Part shown: one piece after another, positions 1 to 13,368 of the stretch | Layout of the letters: the number at the start of each line of letters is the position of its first letter | How positions within the stretch are numbered: the first letter of the stretch is position 1 | DNA from: an uncultured Planctomyces sp. | GTDB taxonomy: Bacteria; Planctomycetota; Planctomycetia; Planctomycetales; Planctomycetaceae | DNA: 51,973 nt | NCBI GenBank assembly: GCA_937904325.1 | Contig: CALGTK010000198.1 | Coordinates: 1 to 51,973, forward strand | Direction of reading: 5' to 3' | The notes under the pieces: generated by a model | What the model was told of the DNA's origin: nothing | Seen by the model: only the letters and a program-made list of their open reading frames with translations | Databases searched by the model: none | Position numbers and translations under genes: made by a program

Positions 1-36
1 TCGTCCGGGGGATCGTCCGGGGGATCGTCCGGGGGA
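1..36 (+). repeat. Three tandem copies of a 12-bp repeat inside the coding frame
   Basis: The unit TCGTCCGGGGGA occurs three times without a mismatch at 1-12, 13-24 and 25-36, and may continue upstream of the window. It is in frame and encodes Ser-Ser-Gly-Gly each time, so copy-number change would lengthen or shorten the protein without shifting the frame. Confidence 0.9.
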
Positions 37-1301: not shown

Positions 1302-2132
1302 TCAGAATGGTACACGAAGCCCGTCGTAGGCAAGCTGCACGTTCGCCGGCAGTCGGGCGTTTGTCGCTTCGTGCTCAAGCGAGTGCGAGATGTGCGTCAG
1401 CCATGTTTGTTTTGGCTTGAGCCGATCGACGACTTCCAGTGCCTGGTCAATTGAGAAATGTGTCGGATGTGGCTTGTCCCGAAGGGTGTCGAGAATCAGC
1501 ACGTCTAGCCCTTCCAGTTTCGACCAGCTTTCGTCTGGAATTGTACTGACGTCCGTGCAGAACGCGACATCAGTAAATCGATACCCAAGAACCGGCATCC
1601 GTCCGTGCAACAACCGCACTGGTTGGACGGTCAGGCCAAGCAACTCGAATGGTTTTTCGTCGATTCGCCGTACGTCGAACTGCGGAATCGACCAGCCTTG
1701 CGCTTCGGGGGGGCGTTCTCGAAACGCGTAACTGAAAGCGGCTCGCATCGTGGCTTCGGTTGATTCTTCCAGATAAATCGGCAGCGGATAACCCAACCGA
1801 TACGGAAACAGCCGTGTATCGTCGAGGCCGTAGAGATGGTCGACATGCCCATGTGTAAAGATCACCGCATGGGCGATCTGAATCTGCTCTCGCAGCAACT
1901 GAAGCCTCAGTTCAGGAGACGTATCGATTAAAAATGTGCCACCGGGCGCGTGAACGGCAACGCCAGTTCGCATTCTTTTGTTACGAGGATTGGGGGACCG
2001 GCAAACGTCGCAGTCGCACCCGATCATTGGTACGCCGGTGCTGGTTCCCGTCCCCAGGAGTACGAGTTCCTGGCGTCGCGAAGCAGCCGCTTCGTCTGTC
2101 GGAAATTCTTCGGAACCGGTTTCGGTCGTCAT
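1302..2132 (-). CDS. MBL-fold metallohydrolase, PhnP/RNase Z-like
   Basis: This 276-residue protein has the metallo-beta-lactamase signature THGHVDH, with metal ligands His94, His96, Asp98 and His99. A further His lies in the Leu-Leu-His-Gly segment, an Asp in Phe-Cys-Thr-Asp, and a late His in Thr-His-Ile-Ser-His. The N-terminal Gly-Thr-Gly-Thr-Ser-Thr-Gly-Val-Pro and the cysteines C39, C41 and C44 are typical of the PhnP-like subfamily. PhnP itself hydrolyses cyclic ribose phosphodiesters, and relatives act on RNA or small phosphodiesters. The substrate here is unknown, and no phn genes are near. The start lies 7 bases after the stop of the upstream YhaN-like gene, so the two are almost certainly cotranscribed. 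The first 20 residues are Glu/Thr/Ala-rich and look like an extension. The family is secure; the exact reaction is not. Confidence 0.87.
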   Translation of the reverse strand: MTTETGSEEFPTDEAAASRRQELVLLGTGTSTGVPMIGCDCDVCRSPNPRNKRMRTGVAVHAPGGTFLIDTSPELRLQLLREQIQIAHAVIFTHGHVDHLYGLDDTRLFPYRLGYPLPIYLEESTEATMRAAFSYAFRERPPEAQGWSIPQFDVRRIDEKPFELLGLTVQPVRLLHGRMPVLGYRFTDVAFCTDVSTIPDESWSKLEGLDVLILDTLRDKPHPTHFSIDQALEVVDRLKPKQTWLTHISHSLEHEATNARLPANVQLAYDGLRVPF

Positions 2133-2139
2133 GGTGGGT

Positions 2140-5100
2140 TTACCCGGCCTTCAGCTCATCATTGATCGCTCGACGCTCGGGAAGCATCACGGTGCTGACA
2201 CCTTGCTGCCGGAACATTTCTGCCAGATGCTGGTGACACGTGAAGAACAGAACCTGCTGGTTGTCGCCAGTTTGTCGCGTCAGTTCTTCGATCGCCGCTC
2301 GAGTTCGCTGCTCGTCGAAGTTGACCAGGATATCGTCCAGCACGATTGGCAATTCGACTCCCAGGTTCGAGAAGTGTTCGATCATGGCAAGGCGAATTGC
2401 GAGGAAGAGCTGCTCTCGAGTGCCGCCGCTCAGGTGTTCGATCCGAAGGGTATTGCCGTCCGCATCGTCGACGCACAAAGTCCGTTCTCCCATTGGGGTC
2501 CAGATGTTGTCGTACCGCTCGCCGCTGAGTCGACTCAGGTACTCCCTGGCCCGAGCCAGGATCGGCGGCTGATGGCTCTGCTCAAACTCGATCCGCAACC
2601 CTTCCAGAGAATTCACAGACCACGCCAGCGCGAACCATTCTTCGGCCAGAGACGTGAGTTCCGACAGTTGTTGCTCACGTTCAAATCTCAGTTCAGCTCC
2701 GCTTCGATCATTTTCAAGCAATTCGATTTCCCGCTTGAATCGCCCCAGGTTTTCGAACGCGTCTTCAATGTCGATGGCAAGATCGTCGAGTTCGCTTCGG
2801 ATCGTTGCAATGCAACATGCGTTATGTTCGGGATCGTATTTTTCGAGATCGCTCTCCACGATTGCCATCGTTGACTGACCGGACGCTGCTGTTACCAGTT
2901 CCTGATTCGCTCGGTCAAGTAATTCTTCAAGCTTGAAGCGTCGCTCAAGCAATGAAGCTCGATCCTGAAATTCCTCGCGTGACACAGCTCCGCCGCGGAC
3001 AAGAATTGCGTCGCGTTGAGATTCCAATCGGCGAATGCGGTCACGGAATTTCGAAGCTTCCAGTCGACGTTGACGAGCTTCACGTTTGCTCCGCCGCCGT
3101 TGTTGATTTAATTCCGAAATACGCGTCAGTACCTGAGCCCAATGGTCAAGCACCGGAACGGGATCCGCGTAATCGACTTTCCACTGCTGTAGTCGATGTC
3201 CGAACTCTTCGACACGTTTACGGAATCGTTCCAGCATGCGACGGGACATCTGTGTGTCCTCGTCCAACGCGTCGATCCGCTGAAGGACCATCGCTGCTCG
3301 CCCAACCTGATCGCGGTGCCAGATTGCTTCGTCGATGTCGACATTTTCTTCCAGCCCCTGCTCATTCAAGTGGCTGCACCAGTCTTGCCGTGCCGCTCCG
3401 AAATCACGTTGAATATCCCGCAACCGATGCCGCATTTCGACAAGTTCAGGGCGAGTCTTGGCAACCCATGCTTCGATCTGCTCAAGCAGTTCCAGTTCGC
3501 GCAGCCGTTCCAGCGACTGTCGCAGAAGGTCAGCTTCGGAAAGCCACGACGGCCGAACTCCATGATCGCCGGCTTCGCCATTTCCTGCGACACGAGTCGG
3601 ATTTTCCAGATTCGTCACACGATTCACCGGCTTCGGCGAAACCGTCACGGAGGATTCTTTGTTGTTTGCCAGGTTGACGGCAGAAACACGAGCCATCATG
3701 TCGGCAATGCTTTCGGTTTCTCCCGGCACTGTGACGACCTTGTCGTCGTCTTCCTGCCACTCAGTTCTGACCGAAGATGTTTCCCTGGCCGACGTTTGTG
3801 ATTCAACGAGCCCTGCTGCTTGCGTCTGTGAAAGGGGATGTTGCTCGGCGGTTTTTTTGTTCGCGGTTTCATTAAAAGGTACCTCGTGTCTCAACTCGGT
3901 CACGGCCGGAGTGATGCACGAAATAGCCTCGCGTGTTTCCTTGAAACGCAACTCCTGTTCGCGAATTTCGTCTTCGAGTAACAGTTTCTTCCGTTCGAAA
4001 TCGCCTTCGGAATGACACTTCAGTGCAAACGGAATCCCGGTGCAGAACGCTCCCAGAAGAGCGTAGGTCAGTCCGACAAAACCGTTAGTAGTCACGCCTG
4101 TCATGAACCCGATCAGACCCAGCGACAGCCCGGCAATTGCCAAAGCAATAAAGACAGCGTTCACCCACTGTGGCAATGCTGAGTGAAGTTGCAGACGATT
4201 GAGTTGATTCGCCAGACCAATTCGGCGTTGTGTCAACTCGGTCTCGCGAATCCGCAGACGACTGAGGTCTTCGAGCCGGGTCAGTTTAACTTTGGTCTGT
4301 TCGATCACCTGGGCAATCGTCACGTCCGGGAAAATTTCACGAGCTGCGGTTAGCTTTTCCTGTCGCCGATGAAACTTCTTCGACAGTTTGCGGTAGCGGT
4401 CTCGCAGCTTCTGACTGCGATTACTCAGCTCGCGAAACGTTTTTGCTCGATTCGTCAAACAGTCACCAGCGAGATGCGAAGTGTCGACGGATCGTACCCT
4501 CTCCTCAGTCCACGCAGGTCCGAGTTTTTGCAGACGTTTGGTCAGTTGATCCCGAAGTTCGTCACTCTTCTGGTCAGTCTCGTCGACGAATTGCTGCACT
4601 TCTGCAATCCAGTCTCGCTGATCGATAAATGCCTGCAGAGCGGGTCCGTAACGATGAAACAGCGGATCGATCGCGATCTGTTTTCGCTGTTCAACAAGCT
4701 GTCGCGCTTCTGCAAGTAATTCATTGCGGCGTCCGCGAATCGCGGCTAGTTCCTGCTCGATGTTGTGCAAATCAGAAAGGCCATTCGCCGGAAAGTCCGG
4801 CAGGTATGGTAGCTGGTCGAGTTTCTTCTGCAGCACTCGGACCTTCTGCCACGGTTCGTGAACCTGCTCCATGTATTCATGGCCGTGTAGTTGGTGTTCA
4901 AGGCCCTGTTGCCGCTGCTTGAACTCAACGATCGACTCTTCCCAACGCTCCTGCTCATCACAAAGCTGAGCATGTTTTCGTCGGATGCCAGTCACTTGCT
5001 CCAACTGAACGTCGATCTTTGCAACTTCATCGTATAGATCGGCAAGCTTACCTTCTCCAGTTTCGACGTCCAGAATCTCACTGCATTCCTGTCGAACGTC

Positions 5101-5622
5101 CTCGATCAGCTGCAACAGTTGCTGACCGTCGAGCCCTAACGACAATGAGTAAATGTGCTCGGCGACTTCCTTCGACTCCAGCGTCGCGAGTTCCTGCAAT
5201 TCGTACAGCCCGATGGCGAAAATGTTTTCGTAGATCGACTCGCTGACATCCGACACCAGATTCGAAACAAGTTCCGAGCCATCGTGCGACGGTTGCTCCG
5301 ACTGCAGACCATCGTCGGTCTCGACCGGCCAGGAAGTGACCAGCCCTGTCGAGTCGCCCTGCCCGGATCGACGGATCATCCACGATTCATGGTCGTGGCG
5401 GATCTGAATTGACCCACCCCAGGGTTGAGTGCCGTCGTCATTGGCCGGGCGGCCGGATTCGCCTCGTCGGAATCCGTAAAGCACGCCCCGCACGAACCGC
5501 ATGAGCGTTGACTTACCGGCTTCATTCAGGCCGTAGTAAACGCTGATGCCTTCGGAGTCGACTGGCAAGTCAAGGTTCTGCCATGCACCGAATCGCTCAA
5601 TATGAATTCGTTCAAGTTTCAT
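2140..5622 (-). CDS. YhaN/SbcC-like AAA ATPase with coiled coil and membrane hairpin
   Basis: The 1160-residue protein has an SMC/Rad50-type layout. The N terminus carries a Walker A (GLNEAGKST, residues 31-39). Long heptad-rich coiled-coil segments fill the middle. The C terminus has the ABC signature Leu-Ser-Gly-Gly near residue 1064, followed by a Walker B/D-loop (Val-Leu-Asp-Asp-Ile, then Asn-Phe-Asp). Residues about 485-535 form two hydrophobic segments flanked by charged residues, a likely membrane hairpin. This recalls Bacillus YhaN, a membrane-linked SbcC relative, more than Rad50 itself. A Ser/Thr/Glu-rich linker (about residues 590-690) interrupts the second half. The start is supported by a strong AGGAGG seven bases upstream of the ATG. 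Upstream lies its YhaO-like partner, downstream the MBL hydrolase. A role in DNA end processing or repair is inferred from the family; partner activity is in doubt (see findings). Confidence 0.87.
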   Translation of the reverse strand: MKLERIHIERFGAWQNLDLPVDSEGISVYYGLNEAGKSTLMRFVRGVLYGFRRGESGRPANDDGTQPWGGSIQIRHDHESWMIRRSGQGDSTGLVTSWPVETDDGLQSEQPSHDGSELVSNLVSDVSESIYENIFAIGLYELQELATLESKEVAEHIYSLSLGLDGQQLLQLIEDVRQECSEILDVETGEGKLADLYDEVAKIDVQLEQVTGIRRKHAQLCDEQERWEESIVEFKQRQQGLEHQLHGHEYMEQVHEPWQKVRVLQKKLDQLPYLPDFPANGLSDLHNIEQELAAIRGRRNELLAEARQLVEQRKQIAIDPLFHRYGPALQAFIDQRDWIAEVQQFVDETDQKSDELRDQLTKRLQKLGPAWTEERVRSVDTSHLAGDCLTNRAKTFRELSNRSQKLRDRYRKLSKKFHRRQEKLTAAREIFPDVTIAQVIEQTKVKLTRLEDLSRLRIRETELTQRRIGLANQLNRLQLHSALPQWVNAVFIALAIAGLSLGLIGFMTGVTTNGFVGLTYALLGAFCTGIPFALKCHSEGDFERKKLLLEDEIREQELRFKETREAISCITPAVTELRHEVPFNETANKKTAEQHPLSQTQAAGLVESQTSARETSSVRTEWQEDDDKVVTVPGETESIADMMARVSAVNLANNKESSVTVSPKPVNRVTNLENPTRVAGNGEAGDHGVRPSWLSEADLLRQSLERLRELELLEQIEAWVAKTRPELVEMRHRLRDIQRDFGAARQDWCSHLNEQGLEENVDIDEAIWHRDQVGRAAMVLQRIDALDEDTQMSRRMLERFRKRVEEFGHRLQQWKVDYADPVPVLDHWAQVLTRISELNQQRRRSKREARQRRLEASKFRDRIRRLESQRDAILVRGGAVSREEFQDRASLLERRFKLEELLDRANQELVTAASGQSTMAIVESDLEKYDPEHNACCIATIRSELDDLAIDIEDAFENLGRFKREIELLENDRSGAELRFEREQQLSELTSLAEEWFALAWSVNSLEGLRIEFEQSHQPPILARAREYLSRLSGERYDNIWTPMGERTLCVDDADGNTLRIEHLSGGTREQLFLAIRLAMIEHFSNLGVELPIVLDDILVNFDEQRTRAAIEELTRQTGDNQQVLFFTCHQHLAEMFRQQGVSTVMLPERRAINDELKAG

Positions 5623-5782: not shown

Positions 5783-7117
5783 TCAAAATCTGGTAGCGTC
5801 GTCTTTAGCGGAGTCTAACCATGCTGTTCCCAGGGAACGAATTCGCTCAGCGACCGCCGTCTGCGAAACTCGCCCGGCAAGTGCGTCCAGTCGATTTGGC
5901 CAAGGCCCTGATGAGTCTTCGTCGTTTGATTCCAGTCTTCGAACAACTTTGCCAGAGATAGAATGTTCGCGGTCGATCTGGCAGAGAAAACTCGTCAGCA
6001 GAGGATGGCGGTCTTCGCTTGCCGGAGAGTCGTCGTTCCACCCTGTCTCGTCGGAAATATCGGATCGCTCAGTTGTTGCAGACGATGGTTCTGGCCGAAG
6101 TGTCAGGCTGTGAATCATGTGCTGACCGTCGGCCAGCGATGAATCGGTCTCCAGTAGTTCGAACAGTTCGTCTTCGGCATCGTTGTTCTGCAATGATTCA
6201 TACAATGATCCGCTACCGGTCAACACCCAGTTAAGGATCAGCACGGAGGTACGTTCGAGACTGGGGAGAGATTCGACATACTCTCGCATTGTCGACATGA
6301 GTTGATCCCACGTCGCCGTTTCGCCAATCGTGATGTTGATCGTTTCTCGCCGCACCGGCGAGGTAACGATTGTCTCTGTCGCAATGCTGGATCGAGCTTC
6401 GACGGTCACCAGCGAGCATCCCGCTGGTCCACAATCAGAACGGGTCATTGAAGTTGCCGGGCCGGGACCGTGTGCAATCTGCTCCATTCGAGTGATTGTC
6501 GTCCGAGCAAACGGTAATGGCACGGCGAGATAGTCGACGCGGTGCGCGGAAAGCCAGGTTTCGACGACCGATTCGTCAGGCGTTGTCCCCGAAGATGCGA
6601 ACGGCGGAATGATGCCAATGCGGAATGGACCGATCCGCGACTGCCCCATCGAAGATGTATCATCCTGCTGAACGGCGTTGTCAGTGGACCGTCCGAGGCA
6701 CGCCTGCAAAGTCGCCAGCACATTGCCATTCCGCATGATCGCGGTGGGCTCGTCGACTTCCGGAACAAACAGGCTGATATTGTCGGGAAGGTCTTTAAAT
6801 GATGCCCAGGCATCTTGAGAATCTCGCGGACCGGACACGACAAACACGTCGATGCCCACCTCTTCAAGACACGTAAATCCTTCGCGAAGTGCGACTCGAG
6901 CCCGCAGGCTGCGGTCAGTCTCATCGAAGGTATCGCCCGTTAGCAGAAGGAAGTCGACCTCGTTGTCGACACAGGCTTCGACGATCCGCTCAAAAGAAAG
7001 CAGTGTCGCGTCGACGAGTTTCGAGCGGACTTTGTCGTCGCACGGACCAGTGTCTCGAACCTGGTGATCTGCCAACACGCCGGATGCGTGAATGAACTTC
7101 AAAGCCTCAAAGGCCAT
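5783..7117 (-). CDS. YhaO/SbcD-like metallophosphoesterase, metal site degenerate
   Basis: This 444-residue protein has the fold landmarks of the SbcD/YhaO/Mre11 calcineurin-like family. These are an N-terminal Phe-Ile-His-Ala strand, a Leu-Leu-Leu-Thr-Gly-Asp-Thr-Phe-Asp block (GDxxD, Asp62 and Asp65), and a following strand ending in Gly-Pro-Arg-Asp (96-99). In active enzymes the first motif is DxH, but here the aligned residues are Gly-Val-Leu (13-15). The third motif GNHD is GPRD, and the later GHxH equivalent reads Val-Pro-Leu-Pro-Phe after Val-Asp-Tyr-Leu-Ala. Most metal ligands are therefore missing. The second half is a divergent Ser/Glu-rich region. The start has a good AAAGGA seven bases upstream. 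A 160-base spacer separates it from the YhaN-like gene downstream, its expected partner. It may be a structural, non-catalytic subunit. Confidence 0.72.
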   Translation of the reverse strand: MAFEALKFIHASGVLADHQVRDTGPCDDKVRSKLVDATLLSFERIVEACVDNEVDFLLLTGDTFDETDRSLRARVALREGFTCLEEVGIDVFVVSGPRDSQDAWASFKDLPDNISLFVPEVDEPTAIMRNGNVLATLQACLGRSTDNAVQQDDTSSMGQSRIGPFRIGIIPPFASSGTTPDESVVETWLSAHRVDYLAVPLPFARTTITRMEQIAHGPGPATSMTRSDCGPAGCSLVTVEARSSIATETIVTSPVRRETINITIGETATWDQLMSTMREYVESLPSLERTSVLILNWVLTGSGSLYESLQNNDAEDELFELLETDSSLADGQHMIHSLTLRPEPSSATTERSDISDETGWNDDSPASEDRHPLLTSFLCQIDREHSISGKVVRRLESNDEDSSGPWPNRLDALAGRVSQTAVAERIRSLGTAWLDSAKDDATRF

Positions 7118-7274: not shown

Positions 7275-8195
7275 TCACGCAGGCGGATCGACTGATTCGC
7301 GTTCGAGCCGTTTACCTTCCTGGTAAAGCTCTTCCATCTGCTGGATCGTGACGTCCCGGATGTCCAGTTCCTGTTCGCGTAAGCGATTCTCGATGTACCG
7401 AAACCGCCGCTCAAATTTCGCATTGCTTTTTCGCAAAGCCTCTTCCGGATTGACCTGCCACCGGCGTGCGATATTCGCAATTACGAATAAAACGTCCCCG
7501 AGTTCGCCTTCGATCCGTTCCTGTCGAGCGGCATCTTCAACGGGCAAGTCCCTGGTTCGGGGACCGTCAACGCTTGCCGGAATGTCCGGAACCTGACCGT
7601 CTTCGAACAATTCATCAGCCAGCTCCGCGACTTCTTCATTCAGCTTGTCGAACAGCATCGCTCGATGAGGAAAATCGTAGCCAACGCGCGCCGCCTGTTT
7701 TGTGATACGTGCGGCTTTGGCAAGACCTGGAAGTTCGACCGGGATCCCGTCGAGGACAGATTCACGTTCGCTTTTCTCTTTGCGTTTCGCCTTGTCCCAG
7801 TGTTGCGAGACGTCCTCAGCGTTCTCCGCGACCGCATCTCCGAAAACATGCGGATGTCGATCGACCATCTTCTTCGTGATGCCATCCATTACGGATAGAA
7901 TGTCAAACCGCTGCTCATCTTTGGCGATCTGAGCATCCAGCACGACCTGCAACAGGACATCGCCGAGTTCTTCACAGATTGCGGCGTTGTCGTCTGTGTC
8001 GATCGCCTCAAGCAGTTCGTACGTTTCTTCCAGCGTGTACGGCTTGATCGTGGGCAGAGTCTGCTGTCGATCCCACGGACAACCATCTGGTGACCGCAAC
8101 TTCGCGATGACCTCCAGAAGTCTGACAAATGCATCCGCCGCCGGACCGGCTTCCGGGGCGATTCCAAATGTCGCCGGGTCGTGTTTCTCGGTCAT
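7275..8195 (-). CDS. mazG: Nucleoside triphosphate pyrophosphohydrolase MazG
   Basis: MazG hydrolyses (d)NTPs to NMPs and pyrophosphate in the cytoplasm and clears non-canonical or excess nucleotides. The protein has two MazG domains. The first holds Arg-Ser-Pro-Asp-Gly-Cys-Pro-Trp-Asp, then the metal-binding Glu-Glu-x-x-Glu and Glu-Glu-Leu-Gly-Asp. The second repeats the pattern (Asn-Glu-Glu-Val-Ala-Glu, then Gly-Glu-Leu-Gly-Asp) and ends in the family-typical Asn-x-Lys-Phe-x-Arg-Arg-Phe. An insert of about 20 residues (Glu-Asp-Gly-Gln to Gln-Glu-Arg) lies within the second domain. I chose the ATG at 8195 (306 residues). The frame stays open to 8267, but the extra residues do not resemble the family, and no start has a clear Shine-Dalgarno. 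The upstream sulfatase gene ends at 8292; the YhaO-like gene follows after 157 bases. Confidence 0.93.
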   Translation of the reverse strand: MTEKHDPATFGIAPEAGPAADAFVRLLEVIAKLRSPDGCPWDRQQTLPTIKPYTLEETYELLEAIDTDDNAAICEELGDVLLQVVLDAQIAKDEQRFDILSVMDGITKKMVDRHPHVFGDAVAENAEDVSQHWDKAKRKEKSERESVLDGIPVELPGLAKAARITKQAARVGYDFPHRAMLFDKLNEEVAELADELFEDGQVPDIPASVDGPRTRDLPVEDAARQERIEGELGDVLFVIANIARRWQVNPEEALRKSNAKFERRFRYIENRLREQELDIRDVTIQQMEELYQEGKRLERESVDPPA

Positions 8196-8291
8196 CATAC
8201 GAACCGTTTTCAAGTCGAAACCTGGAAGACTTAACAAAGTGCATTTGAACTCTGCGTTCCGTTTCACAGTGATGGCAGTGGAGACTGAGGA

Positions 8292-10190
8292 TCAGGGAAC
8301 AACATTGTTTGTGCCGAGCAATTCATTCAACGCTCGGTTCAGGACTCGCACCGTGTACTTGCCGTCAGCGACGAAGCCTTTGCGATAAACGTTGTTTTGC
8401 TTCATTCCATCCAGGACTGGTCGAGCTTGCTCGTCAATTTCATCCAGCACGTTTGCCGCGTGGACTCTCGCCCATTGGGTACCGCTATCGAGCACCGCAA
8501 CCAGCACTGGCAATGCTTCATTCGGTTCATTCATTCGGCACAGGGCTCGTGCGGCTGCGACTCGAACGTTCTCTGAATCGTCTGCCAGGGCAAGGGTGAG
8601 ATCATTCTTCGCTGCCGAACCTGCTGTTCCAAGATTCCCAATCCCGACCGCCGCCCAGTACCGCACAGCAGCGTCGTCATCTTTCAGCGTCTGGCGCATT
8701 TTCGGCAGACTGTTTGCCCCTTCGAGCGACAATGAGGCCGCGTCTCGCAAGCGGTTGATCAACGTGCCCGCCTGATCGCCACCAAGAATCGCCCAGGCAC
8801 TACCAAGCTTTCCTTGTCGAGCGTTGATCTCCGCCTCTGGAACAAGACCGAGGTCACGAGTTTCCAGCACCCAGGCAAGGTGCGTTTTCCGCATCCGCCC
8901 GAGAATATTTTTGTACTGCGGATCACTCGCGAGATTGTTCATCTCATGCGGGTCGATCTGCGTGTCGTACAACTCTTCGATGGGCTTGCTCGGCGTCAGG
9001 AACTTTGCGACGCCTTCGTTCGCGGTTCCTTCAGATTGAACCCGCCGAATTTCCTGCATCAACGCTCCTCTTTCGGGCGTGTTCATGTACTGGTAGAAGG
9101 TCTTGAACGATTCGTAGTTGCGGATGTACTTGTAACGTTTGTCGCGAGTTGCCCGAATGATGTCGTACCGCTCGTCCATCCGGTCACGGGCTCCGTAAAC
9201 GTAATCTCGTGGAGCAGGCGTGTTCGCGCCGAGAAATGCCTGACCGTGAACGCGCTCAGGCATTTTGGAGCCGGCCAGATTCAAGGTTGTCGGGCCAAGG
9301 TCAATCAGACTGACAAGTTGATCGCTGACCGTCCCCGGCGTTCCCTGTCCGTCGACTCGGTACTTCTCTGGAATTCGCACGATCAACGGAACGTGCATGC
9401 CCGAGTCGTACAGCCACCGCTTAGCACGAGGTAGCCCGACTCCGTGATCGGACCAGTAGACAACGATCGTGTTGTCAGCCTCGCCAGCATCTTCGAGAGC
9501 TTGCAGATGCTCGCCGACCCAGCGATCCATCGCGGTGATCACATCGTAGTATCGGCCCCAGTCTTCACGGACGATCGGCGTGTCCGGGTAGTACGGCGGC
9601 AAACTCTCGACCGCGACACTTCGGTCAATTTTTTCGAGCCCCTCGGTCACCGAATCGTATTTGCCTTTACTGGCGATTCCGGATTCATGACACCCGGTGT
9701 AGTTAAACACGGCAAAGAAGGGCTGATTCTTGTCGGGACGCTTCTTCCAGTGAGCTTTCCCGCTGGATTCATCCCAGACCCCCTTGGGAGTCTTGAACTG
9801 ATAGTCCTGTTTCGAGCTGTTAGTGCAGTAGTAACCGGCTTCTCGAACGTAAGTCGGAAACGGTTTTACGTGCGGCGGCAATTCGGCTTTACACCGCATG
9901 TGATGAGTGCCTAGCGACGTCTGATACATACCAGTAATGATTGCCGATCGGCACGGAGCACAGACTCCAGCCGTTACAAACGCGTTCGTGTAGCGAGTTC
10001 CCTGTGCCGCCAGCCGATCAAGATTTGGAGTTCTGGCATTGGGATACCCATAGCAGTGCAGATGAGCACTGATGTCTTCGCATGACAGCCAAAGTATGTT
10101 TGGCCGGTCCGAGGCCTCATTGGCTTTCCCGGTTGCCAGGAAGCAAGTCAGAACAGTAATCAACAGACAAATCACTTTGCAGGGCTTCAT
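8292..10190 (-). CDS. Secreted sulfatase with C-terminal HEAT repeats
   Basis: This is a type I (formylglycine) sulfatase of 632 residues. A signal peptide spans about residues 1-22 (hydrophobic Val-Ile-Cys-Leu-Leu-Ile). The catalytic core begins at Arg-Pro-Asn-Ile-Leu-Trp. The C-x-P-x-R motif CAPCR is at 77-81, with Cys77 the residue expected to become formylglycine. A Trp-Ser-Asp-His-Gly block gives further metal ligands. The last roughly 130 residues are Ala/Leu-rich helical repeats of HEAT type, seen in some planctomycete sulfatases and likely used for protein contacts. I chose the ATG at 10190 because it starts the signal peptide and has an AAAGAG sequence upstream; an upstream Met at 10244 lacks both. 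The substrate cannot be read from the sequence; sulfated algal polysaccharides are the usual suspects. An esterase and an enolase-superfamily gene lie just upstream on the same strand. Confidence 0.92.
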   Translation of the reverse strand: MKPCKVICLLITVLTCFLATGKANEASDRPNILWLSCEDISAHLHCYGYPNARTPNLDRLAAQGTRYTNAFVTAGVCAPCRSAIITGMYQTSLGTHHMRCKAELPPHVKPFPTYVREAGYYCTNSSKQDYQFKTPKGVWDESSGKAHWKKRPDKNQPFFAVFNYTGCHESGIASKGKYDSVTEGLEKIDRSVAVESLPPYYPDTPIVREDWGRYYDVITAMDRWVGEHLQALEDAGEADNTIVVYWSDHGVGLPRAKRWLYDSGMHVPLIVRIPEKYRVDGQGTPGTVSDQLVSLIDLGPTTLNLAGSKMPERVHGQAFLGANTPAPRDYVYGARDRMDERYDIIRATRDKRYKYIRNYESFKTFYQYMNTPERGALMQEIRRVQSEGTANEGVAKFLTPSKPIEELYDTQIDPHEMNNLASDPQYKNILGRMRKTHLAWVLETRDLGLVPEAEINARQGKLGSAWAILGGDQAGTLINRLRDAASLSLEGANSLPKMRQTLKDDDAAVRYWAAVGIGNLGTAGSAAKNDLTLALADDSENVRVAAARALCRMNEPNEALPVLVAVLDSGTQWARVHAANVLDEIDEQARPVLDGMKQNNVYRKGFVADGKYTVRVLNRALNELLGTNNVVP

Positions 10191-10310
10191 CGATTTACTC
10201 TTTGGCGGATTAGTAGAACGTTGCCTGATGCAAGACTGACGCAAAGTCGCTGAGACGCGAAGGTTGCTCCTGGCAGAAACTCTGCGACCTGGCGTCAGAG
10301 ATGGTAGCGT

Positions 10311-11246
10311 CTATCGCTGCGACTTTGACGTCAGTCCAAAGTTCGCCGCGTGAAATTTCATCAGCTCAAGCCCACGTTTGTCGTAAATCAGTTTTGCACT
10401 GTGAGGGACGCCTTCGACGATCAAACGCTCATACGGAATCTTGAGCGACGTCAGAAAATCCATGTACTCAAGATTGTTCTTGTAGTTGAAGCCTTTGGTT
10501 CCAACGTGGACGAGAATCTTCAACGATGACTCCGGATTCTTCGCATATTCCCGAGCAAGATCCCACGTGTTGCAGCCCTCGGCAAAAACGAGGTTGTCGT
10601 TCTCGCGACCGTGGTTCTCTGAGATCGACTTTTCAGTCGCCTGTCCTGCGCCGCCAGGGGCGCACGAGCGGAACAGGTCCGGATGTTTGAACATAATTCG
10701 AGTCGTGCCTCGCCCACCCTGTGAGAAACCTTCCAGACCGCGGCTTGCGCGATTCGCGATCGTCCGATAAGTCGCGTCGACATGTGGAATCAGCTCTTTG
10801 ACAAAAACATCTTCACCTAACGAGCCGAACTGAGGCGTATTGTAGTGGCTGACTTTTCCACCGTTCACGAAGACGTAAATCATGTCCGGCACGTCGCCCT
10901 GCTGCATCGCCTTGTCGATATGTACTGTCAACTTGATCGACTTCGTTTCGCTGCCGGGCCGACCACCGTGCAGGTAGTAAACGACAGGGAAACGCTTCTT
11001 CGAGTTCTTCTTCGTTTCATAGCCTGGTGGTAGATAAATACAGTACCCGACGTCGACGTTCATCGACGGACTCTTGAAAGTCTGGTGTTTGAGACCGTCT
11101 ACCCAGTTACCTTCCGGAATTGGATTTACCCACCGAAACGGCTTCGGGGTCTTCTTCGCCGGTTGCTTGTCGTGCTTCGATTTCTGCGCGAAGACTGACG
11201 ACGAAATGACAACGACCGCGAGTGTCAAACAGAGTGTGCGAATCAT
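10311..11246 (-). CDS. Secreted alpha/beta-hydrolase esterase
   Basis: The 311-residue protein starts with a signal peptide (residues 1-20, ending Ser-Val-Phe-Ala). A basic linker and an esterase-D-like alpha/beta hydrolase domain follow. Visible landmarks are Val-Val-Tyr-Tyr-Leu-His-Gly-Gly (oxyanion loop) at about 88-95 and the nucleophile elbow GFSQGG with Ser175. A late His near Val-Pro-His-Ser probably completes the triad. Such enzymes remove acyl or feruloyl esters from carbohydrates, or resemble enterochelin esterases; the substrate here is unknown. It lies 66 bases upstream of the sulfatase and 71 bases downstream of the enolase-superfamily gene, which suggests one catabolic unit for decorated polysaccharides. 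Confidence 0.85.
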   Translation of the reverse strand: MIRTLCLTLAVVVISSSVFAQKSKHDKQPAKKTPKPFRWVNPIPEGNWVDGLKHQTFKSPSMNVDVGYCIYLPPGYETKKNSKKRFPVVYYLHGGRPGSETKSIKLTVHIDKAMQQGDVPDMIYVFVNGGKVSHYNTPQFGSLGEDVFVKELIPHVDATYRTIANRASRGLEGFSQGGRGTTRIMFKHPDLFRSCAPGGAGQATEKSISENHGRENDNLVFAEGCNTWDLAREYAKNPESSLKILVHVGTKGFNYKNNLEYMDFLTSLKIPYERLIVEGVPHSAKLIYDKRGLELMKFHAANFGLTSKSQR

Positions 11247-11317
11247 GATGCGGGCTGCTTTCGAGTTTTTTATGAGCTGACTATGAGCATAGTGGTTACT
11301 GGAAGTTACAACGGGCT

Positions 11318-12730
11318 TCAGGCAGGAATCAGGACCGGGCCTTTTCGAGCAGACGCATACAGTTCCTTCCAGCGTGTTGAGCCATCATCTGGCAGCAACT
11401 TCGTGTCGACTCCTCGTTCGAAGTAAGGCATCCGTCCCTCTTGCCCGATCTTCAACATGAAATTTACTTTGCCATTGTTGGCAATGTACATCTTCCGGCC
11501 ATCGAGCCACGTCGTCTCAATCAGCCGCGGAGGCTCAGGGCGACGGGCCGGCTTGCGGACCTTGTACTTCTCCACCGCATCCCAATCGATTTCACAACCA
11601 AGTCCCGACCCGGTCGGAATTTCCGACATTCCCACTTCGACATTGATCGGCTCGGTCAAGAGCTGATGTTGATAAAGCTGGTGGCAATTGACGGCCGGCC
11701 ATTTGGCGTGACTTAACACGGCTCCGAAGTGCTTCGACCAGGTGGCCGTAATTCCTGTACCGACAATCTGCAGCCAGAACGGCTTGTCAGCCATCGCGGA
11801 GACGGTTCCTCGATTCCGCACTCGGCTGGCCCCGCCGCCAATCACGAAGCCGTCACAGACCTCATTCTTTAGAGCAACGATTGGATCCGGATTTCCATAG
11901 TGCATGGCAACGGGCACTCGCGTCGCTTTGCGGATTGCCTGGTTGCCCGCGATGTCGTCCTGAAAAATCGGTGTCTCCCAGAAGGTCATCTGTTGAAATT
12001 CGGCCAACTCTTTGAGAATCGGAATTCCTCGTTCAGCGGTTAGCAGCGTGTCATTAAAATCGAGAGCGATGTGAAAGTCGTCCGGCACCGCCTTTGCCGT
12101 TTCTTCACACATGGCCCACACGTCGAACCACGGCCGGCCTTTCGTTTTATACGCTCGATACCCCTGCCGGTACGCCTCGGCACATTCCGCGGCCATATCT
12201 CTGGGCGACGTGTCAATATTCCACCAGGCGAGTGGAGTTTCATTCGTCAGCTGAGTTCCCAGCAACGCGTGTACCGGTACATCGCAAGCTTCGCCGACGG
12301 CGTCGAACAGAGCCATCTGTAGCCCGGCCCCAAGTTCGTCGTCCCACATGATTTCGACGGCGTTTTTGCCAATAGCGCGGGCGACGTGTGTATCTTCAGT
12401 CGCTCCGTACGTGTAGTAGAGCATCGTTTCACCGTGGCCGACGTGCCCGGATTTCAGTTTGACTGAGCAAATTTCCGAGTACATCCAGTGAGGGATTTCG
12501 CGAGACATTGCGCGGTGAGGAATCTCACGAAACGGAACCTTCACGGTCACACGGTCGATTGATGTGATTTCAAACGCGCGGTTCGGTTTAGGAGCAGCAG
12601 CGGCCTTTGGCAATCCATCGAGAAGCCCGATGCCAGCATATGCCGCTGTGGCGCCAGTCCGACTGAGGAACTGACGCCTGTCGATTCGTGGATTTGACGA
12701 ATGTTGAGAGGTTGTCTGGTGGCTAAACAT
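11318..12730 (-). CDS. Enolase-superfamily (mandelate racemase/muconate lactonizing type) protein with Tat-like leader
   Basis: The 470-residue protein begins with a twin-arginine-like leader (Asp-Arg-Arg-Gln-Phe-Leu-Ser-Arg) and an Ala/Gly-rich hydrophobic stretch, so it is probably exported folded. Enolase-superfamily features follow in order: the Tyr-Lys-Thr-Lys-Gly (KxK) catalytic lysines, an Asp-Phe-Asn metal-binding block, Trp-Glu-Thr-Pro-Ile and then Met-His-Tyr-Gly. Members abstract an alpha proton from carboxylates, as in sugar-acid dehydratases and racemases. The Lys-x-Lys arrangement suits that chemistry, but the substrate is unknown. The ATG at 12730 has an AAGGG eight bases upstream and replaces a longer frame from 12814. 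It is divergent from tsaE, with a 137-base shared promoter region, and heads the sulfatase/esterase block. Confidence 0.88.
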   Translation of the reverse strand: MFSHQTTSQHSSNPRIDRRQFLSRTGATAAYAGIGLLDGLPKAAAAPKPNRAFEITSIDRVTVKVPFREIPHRAMSREIPHWMYSEICSVKLKSGHVGHGETMLYYTYGATEDTHVARAIGKNAVEIMWDDELGAGLQMALFDAVGEACDVPVHALLGTQLTNETPLAWWNIDTSPRDMAAECAEAYRQGYRAYKTKGRPWFDVWAMCEETAKAVPDDFHIALDFNDTLLTAERGIPILKELAEFQQMTFWETPIFQDDIAGNQAIRKATRVPVAMHYGNPDPIVALKNEVCDGFVIGGGASRVRNRGTVSAMADKPFWLQIVGTGITATWSKHFGAVLSHAKWPAVNCHQLYQHQLLTEPINVEVGMSEIPTGSGLGCEIDWDAVEKYKVRKPARRPEPPRLIETTWLDGRKMYIANNGKVNFMLKIGQEGRMPYFERGVDTKLLPDDGSTRWKELYASARKGPVLIPA

Positions 12731-12867
12731 AAACGGTTCCCTTAGTGCTAAACGGTTCAGGTTATCCTGGGAGATCGTACGAGGTTCCGCCACCGAAACG
12801 ACGAGCGTGATCATCGCTGCAGGGTCAATGTGGCAGGAAGTCAGTCGTACGATATCCTTTGCGAATC

Positions 12868-13368
12868 ATGACCACCGAAACTCCTTCCGAAATTACCATA
12901 GAGCTGAACAACGAAATCAGGACTCAGCAACTTGGTAGAGCCTTGGGCGCGGTTGCGCAGCCGGGGCTTGTGGTCGCGCTTGTGGGGAACCTGGGTGCCG
13001 GGAAGACGCGATTTGTCCAGGCAGCGGCCGAAGGACTGGACATCCCTCGTGAAGCCGTCAACAGCCCGACGTTCGTTCTCATTCACGAATACGAAGGTCG
13101 CCTGCCGGTTTACCACTTCGATACCTACCGCCTTGGCGACATCGACGAATTTCTGGAACTCGGAGCGGACGAGTACATGTCCGGCGACGGTGTCTGCTTC
13201 ATTGAGTGGGCAGACCGGATGGAAGAAGTGCTTCCGAGAGACCGCCTGAGCATCGCATTCGAAATTACGGGCGAGCTCACCCGCCGTGTAACCCTTGCAT
13301 CCGGTGGCCGCGTCTCACAATCAGTGCTGAACGCGTTAGATCAGCACCGTTCAGAATCGCAGTCCTGA
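12868..13368 (+). CDS. tsaE: tRNA threonylcarbamoyladenosine biosynthesis ATPase TsaE
   Basis: TsaE is the small ATPase that works with TsaB and TsaD to make the t6A modification at position 37 of ANN-decoding tRNAs. The 166-residue protein has a Walker A (GNLGAGKT, residues 40-47) and the family motif Ser-Pro-Thr-Phe followed by Tyr-His-Phe-Asp-Thr-Tyr-Arg. The later Phe-Ile-Glu-Trp-Ala-Asp is also typical. Length fits the family. The ATG at 12868 (Met-Thr-Thr-Glu) is preferred over a TTG nine bases earlier. No tsaB or tsaD is nearby. The gene ends 28 bases from the convergent GIY-YIG gene. Confidence 0.93.
   Translation: MTTETPSEITIELNNEIRTQQLGRALGAVAQPGLVVALVGNLGAGKTRFVQAAAEGLDIPREAVNSPTFVLIHEYEGRLPVYHFDTYRLGDIDEFLELGADEYMSGDGVCFIEWADRMEEVLPRDRLSIAFEITGELTRRVTLASGGRVSQSVLNALDQHRSESQS

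Follow-up and report, generated by a model that had tools for sequence, protein, structure and literature searches.

What purpose does a Mre11-like protein serve in a cell once its active site has gone? Mre11-Rad50 is among the most conserved DNA-break machines, and its nuclease-independent tethering and signalling functions are usually probed with point mutants. The window (the whole stretch of DNA analysed here, 51,973 nucleotides from an uncultured Planctomyces sp.) carries on its (-) strand, at 5783..7117, a gene with an ATG start that encodes a protein of 444 aa, which we call pseudo-YhaO. Its identification draws on the open reading frame, an AlphaFold2 model, VIA Z scores and dN/dS. The protein consists of a phosphoesterase and capping domain followed by a C-terminal helical region, in a Mre11/SbcD fold, and its profile matches are sub-threshold both for calcineurin-like phosphoesterases (Pfam; 14.4 bits vs 21.5) and for sbcd (NCBIfam; 27.4 bits vs a cut-off of 77.65).

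To describe the state of the old active site, we scored eight catalytic positions, those of P. furiosus Mre11 D8, H10, D49, N84, H85, H173, H206 and H208. The window protein has one of the eight: the motif II aspartate, Asp62, equivalent to D49, within an intact GDTFD (6923..6937; all motif coordinates are on the (-) strand). It is also the only one present of the seven metal ligands, which are the same positions without H85. At the motif I position (DxH, D8/H10; 7073..7081) the protein has Gly13-Val14-Leu15, read within HASGVLADH, and the ligands are lost. The motif III position (GNHD; 6821..6832) reads Gly96-Pro97-Arg98-Asp99 in the context SGPRD, so that the N84 ligand is lost and the catalytic histidine (H85; H84 in E. 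coli SbcD) is Arg98. The motif IV position (GxLH, H173; 6605..6607) is Pro171, reading GIIPP, with loss of the His ligand, and the motif V position (ALGHxH, H206/H208; 6509..6526) reads Ala-Val-Pro-Leu-Pro-Phe at residues 198-203, with loss of both ligands. The preliminary description of this gene had stated that most catalytic metal ligands are gone; the four motifs that it listed (Gly-Val-Leu, an intact GDxxD, GPRD and Val-Pro-Leu-Pro-Phe) match the ORF sequence, but it left out the loss in motif IV. The register comes from a profile-profile alignment of pseudo-YhaO with intact YhaO (421 columns, hhalign probability 100, E 1e-108), which pairs HASGVLADH with HCADLHLDS, GDTFD with GDVYD, SGPRD with HGNHD, GIIPPF with GVLHCN and AVPLPF with ALGHVH, and from a structural alignment to 1II7 (P. 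furiosus Mre11) that starts at 6..1 and thus puts Gly13 on Asp8. Against intact YhaO, Mre11 and SbcD the losses stand: neither profile alignment nor superposition of the AlphaFold model found motifs intact at shifted positions. Within the window clade the old ligand positions vary freely. D49 gives way to N, G, S, E or A, with Asn at the motif II Asp in many sister genera; the other ligand positions hold nearly any residue, and the H85 position is non-His in nearly all members.

The fold landmarks of SbcD/Mre11, which the first reading of the gene had noted, are present in the predicted structure. The AlphaFold2 model, built from an alignment of 41 homologues, has a pLDDT of 82.9, with values mostly >90 in the nuclease and capping domains and about 50-78 in the C-terminal helices. 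Residues 2-344 of the model superpose on Mre11/SbcD structures at Z 18.7-22.6 (VIA), with rmsd 3.6-9.3 over 259-318 residues. Every one of the nearest solved structures is a Mre11 or SbcD, with general phosphoesterases following at Z ≤17.

The partner of this protein is encoded directly downstream on the same strand, an arrangement shared by all family loci uncut by contig ends. It is a YhaN/SbcC/Rad50-like ATPase of 1160 aa (2140..5622, (-); AAA_27, 2.2e-11) in which the whole motif set is present: Walker A (YGLNEAGKST, 5506..5535), the signature (LSGGTREQL, with LSGG at 2422..2433), Walker B (LPIVLDDILVNFD; LPIVLDD at 2332..2352) and the H-loop (FTCH), the coordinates again being on the (-) strand. 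Walker A, an LS-x-G signature, Walker B and the H-loop occur in every ATPase copy that we read, a few of them with FTSH for FTCH, and an ATPase of the window type was detected in 36 of the 37 family genomes sampled. An all-against-all comparison of 34 loci found that only the pseudo-YhaO and ATPase genes recur generally, and no other conserved neighbour hinting at a pathway appeared in more than 5 of the 34. The proposed pairing of a dead phosphoesterase with a complete YhaN/Rad50-like ATPase is therefore borne out, by intact nucleotide motifs and by a conserved two-gene module. Upstream of pseudo-YhaO lies mazG (7275-8267), which stands beside the module in the window's genus only, plus one further locus (L079) where it is located beyond the ATPase gene on the other strand.

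Across 129 ATPase proteins, the middle 40% of the sequence contained no CxxC zinc hook. In the window ATPase, a hydrophobic hairpin of two TM-like segments, predicted from hydropathy, stands where Rad50 has its hook (4021..4158, (-)). All ATPases of the window's clade have a hydrophobic segment at this place; in some members fewer than two segments exceed the hydropathy threshold. Pro484, Gly505 and Gly517 of the hairpin region are invariant. The hairpin suggests that this SMC-like ATPase may insert into a membrane.

Whether the losses are peculiar to one gene was answered by their spread. We searched 59 genomes, counting that of the window, and found pseudo-YhaO in 6/6 genomes from the genus and across most of the family; the homologues of the five congeners share 69-89% identity with the window protein. 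All six congeneric genomes carry pseudo-YhaO as an intact ORF, as do about 30 other genera. The preliminary description had called for a survey of planctomycete homologues, and the same losses proved to be clade-wide: all 43 family-type homologues found (30 from the genome search and 13 from a named collection, one being cut by a contig end) have 0-2 of the eight catalytic positions. All eight are present in 50/50 canonical YhaO proteins, whose sources include planctomycetes, Chloroflexota, Bacillota and archaea, and there are almost no intermediates, a Pirellulales-type group excepted. Comparison within the genus gives pseudo-YhaO a dN/dS of 0.09-0.20, against 0.03-0.12 for neighbour genes and for intact YhaO. 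On this dN/dS the gene is not decaying; the loss of catalytic positions is an old, clade-wide trait. Loss of catalytic residues is what a decaying pseudogene or sequencing errors would produce, but the intact ORFs across the genus and about 30 genera refute this explanation together with the dN/dS values, and we give it practically no credence. Sequencing error or chance was likewise rejected as the cause of the losses, both on their recurrence in the five congeners and on the purifying selection acting on the gene. The dead pair is selectively kept in nearly all relatives examined and therefore has a useful role that does not involve cutting.

The exceptional group comprises Rhodopirellula, Stieleria, Adhaeretor, Pirellula and Thermoguttaceae within the Pirellulales (termed mid, as distinct from A, the window family, and C, a third planctomycete group). 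D8, H10, D49 and H208 are kept in 25 of 27 mid proteins, and N84, H85, H173 and H206 are lost, except that L127 keeps N84. We take the four kept positions to be the complete Mn1 site of Mre11; N84, H173 and H206 presumably form Mn2 together with D49 as the bridging residue, and H85 is presumably the catalytic His. Since mid proteins keep the Mn1 ligands and lose those of Mn2, one metal site is kept and the other lost. One-metal-site proteins of this kind are those of L105-L132, L147, L152 and L165; in L118, most of the remaining metal site is lost too. A predicted mid structure matches Mre11/SbcD at Z 21-24. The partners in group C are eroded further, yet align to mid (hhalign probability 98.4). 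In the group C loci (L136, L140, L143, L144, L148, L155, L166, L167 and L170) the YhaO-like partner is almost unrecognisable, but its gene is still followed by an ATPase of the same subfamily, and a C-terminal REAGWLALEL(I/L)ES block is retained. The ATPase heads of A, mid and C form one clade, in which the three groups branch separately and which excludes the ATPases paired with intact YhaO (SH-aLRT 100, in an unrooted tree made by a quick method with SH-aLRT and without bootstrap). L163, labelled mid but without a partner gene, falls among the intact-type ATPases in this tree. The tree being unrooted, the order in which the metal sites were lost is what we infer from these states.

We consider pseudo-YhaO likely to be the pseudo-nuclease member of a dedicated complex, Mre11-Rad50-like but nuclease-free, that serves as a clamp, tether or sensor. 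A structural or sensing role had been suggested at the outset, and the conserved module of dead phosphoesterase and complete ATPase points to it. In such a complex, two pseudo-YhaO subunits would dimerise to serve as a platform and would bind the bases of the ATPase coiled coils as Mre11 does, keeping two ATPase heads together. ATP binding would close the heads around DNA and hydrolysis would open them, and the assembly may be anchored to the membrane by the hydrophobic hairpin at the tip of the coiled coil. The complex would thus act as an ATP-gated clamp, tether or sensor of DNA or DNA ends that is itself unable to cut. Nuclease-independent functions of such complexes are established by precedent: nuclease-deficient E. 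coli SbcCD H84Q retains about 85% of its ATPase activity, having lost about 15% (PMC6265447), and MRN, to activate ATM, has to bind ATP but can do without the nuclease function of Mre11 (PMC3642328). More tentatively, Planctomycetes might have replaced or supplemented the Mre11-Rad50 nuclease with a core, membrane-tethered, nuclease-free SMC-like clamp, lost site by site; one metal site would have gone first (the Pirellulales state) and then both (the window family), so that evolution would have split the structural and signalling role from cutting.

The main rival to the clamp is a repurposed pocket, in which His216, His336, Trp104 and Trp297 would hold a ligand such as a nucleotide, or attack another type of bond, and the complex would sense that ligand. 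His216 lies in HGPG (216-219; 6461..6472, (-)), whose PG is common with intact YhaO (PGN.QGR). In the window clade 91% of the proteins have this His, where intact YhaO has Val or another residue, and Trp104, Trp297, His336 and Trp433 are likewise clade-conserved; the one complete metal site of the Pirellulales relatives also makes ligand binding plausible there. The free variation of the old ligand positions within the window clade speaks against a repurposed pocket, which we regard as rather unlikely.

The remaining alternatives keep the cutting and assign it to another protein. The window's genome has an intact YhaO-YhaN pair elsewhere, with 8/8 catalytic positions in its YhaO (locus L031; genes at 8815-12027 and 12024-13307 of G000:C78, both (-), overlapping by 4 bases), and about 21 of the 37 family genomes have a full-length intact YhaO. 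The complex could process DNA through a nuclease encoded elsewhere, such as this C78 YhaO in mixed complexes, but intact YhaO has an adjacent ATPase of its own. Profile searches moreover detected no SbcD above the cut-off in the window's genome, nor in 11 of the 12 near-complete genomes that have the dead module without intact YhaO; the twelfth encodes an SbcD at G034:C133:32967-33749 (-) with 181 bits, above the family cut-off. In those 11 genomes, as far as profile searches of partly draft genomes indicate, the dead complex would be the only Mre11-Rad50-like system detected, and a recruited nuclease seems improbable to us. Less probable still is that the adjacent MBL-fold hydrolase (1302..2132, (-)) cuts for the complex. 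The preliminary description had offered this gene as the new seat of the nuclease role, and in the window it indeed follows the ATPase gene directly on the same strand, after a 7 bp gap. Its distribution leaves the proposal unsupported: the gene adjoins the module within the window's genus only and lies outside the conserved pair, and the dead module persists in the other genera examined with no MBL homologue next to it. The protein is of the PhnP/PRK02113 type.

Several known systems resemble the dead pair in part. The YhaO/YhaN (SbcF/SbcE) pair has the same gene order, phosphoesterase then ATPase, is homologous along its whole length and has an ATPase without a CxxC hook; it differs in that intact YhaO has all eight catalytic positions against one in the window protein, and in that the window ATPase falls in a planctomycete clade of its own. 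SbcCD/Mre11-Rad50 shares the phosphoesterase and capping fold and a Rad50-like ATPase with all nucleotide motifs, whereas the window pair lacks the di-metal site, the catalytic His and the zinc hook, and the window protein falls below the sbcd cut-off. Eukaryotic replicative DNA polymerase B subunits are inactive calcineurin-like phosphoesterases related to archaeal DP1/Mre11 (PMC4996933). They are alike in principle, as a dead Mre11-like phosphoesterase kept as a structural subunit, but their partner is a DNA polymerase and not an SMC-like ATPase, and the two losses were presumably independent. Lamassu and other SMC-like defence ATPases also combine a Rad50-like ATPase with a partner, and their head domains are distantly similar; in contrast to them, the window module is near-universal in its family rather than patchy, and no recurring effector gene lies beside it. 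PADLOC gave no match for the pseudo-nuclease, and its matches of the ATPase were weak and partial, to generic AAA/SMC heads only.

Evolution has here made the separation of tethering and signalling from the nuclease, in a near-core dead pair of a whole bacterial family that is sometimes the only such complex detected, with a sister order at the one-metal-site stage. Homology-based annotation as "exonuclease" is probably wrong for the planctomycete dead-module group. We found no paper on the planctomycete pseudo-nuclease in the literature searched, mostly without subscription journals, which does not prove novelty. Cultured planctomycetes carry the module in its one-site form (Rhodopirellula, Stieleria and Adhaeretor), and genomic modification tools are described for the phylum (PMC11958385), so the module is testable.

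Two observations concern canonical YhaO in the window's genome. In the YhaO tree, the L031 protein groups with that of L032, which comes from a congener, while the intact YhaO proteins of three further congeners fall elsewhere; this placement looks as if the gene had been replaced or transferred. The same genome holds a broken remnant of a canonical YhaO at G000:C222:10821-11388 (+), with its pieces in different frames and three TGA codons inside one of them.
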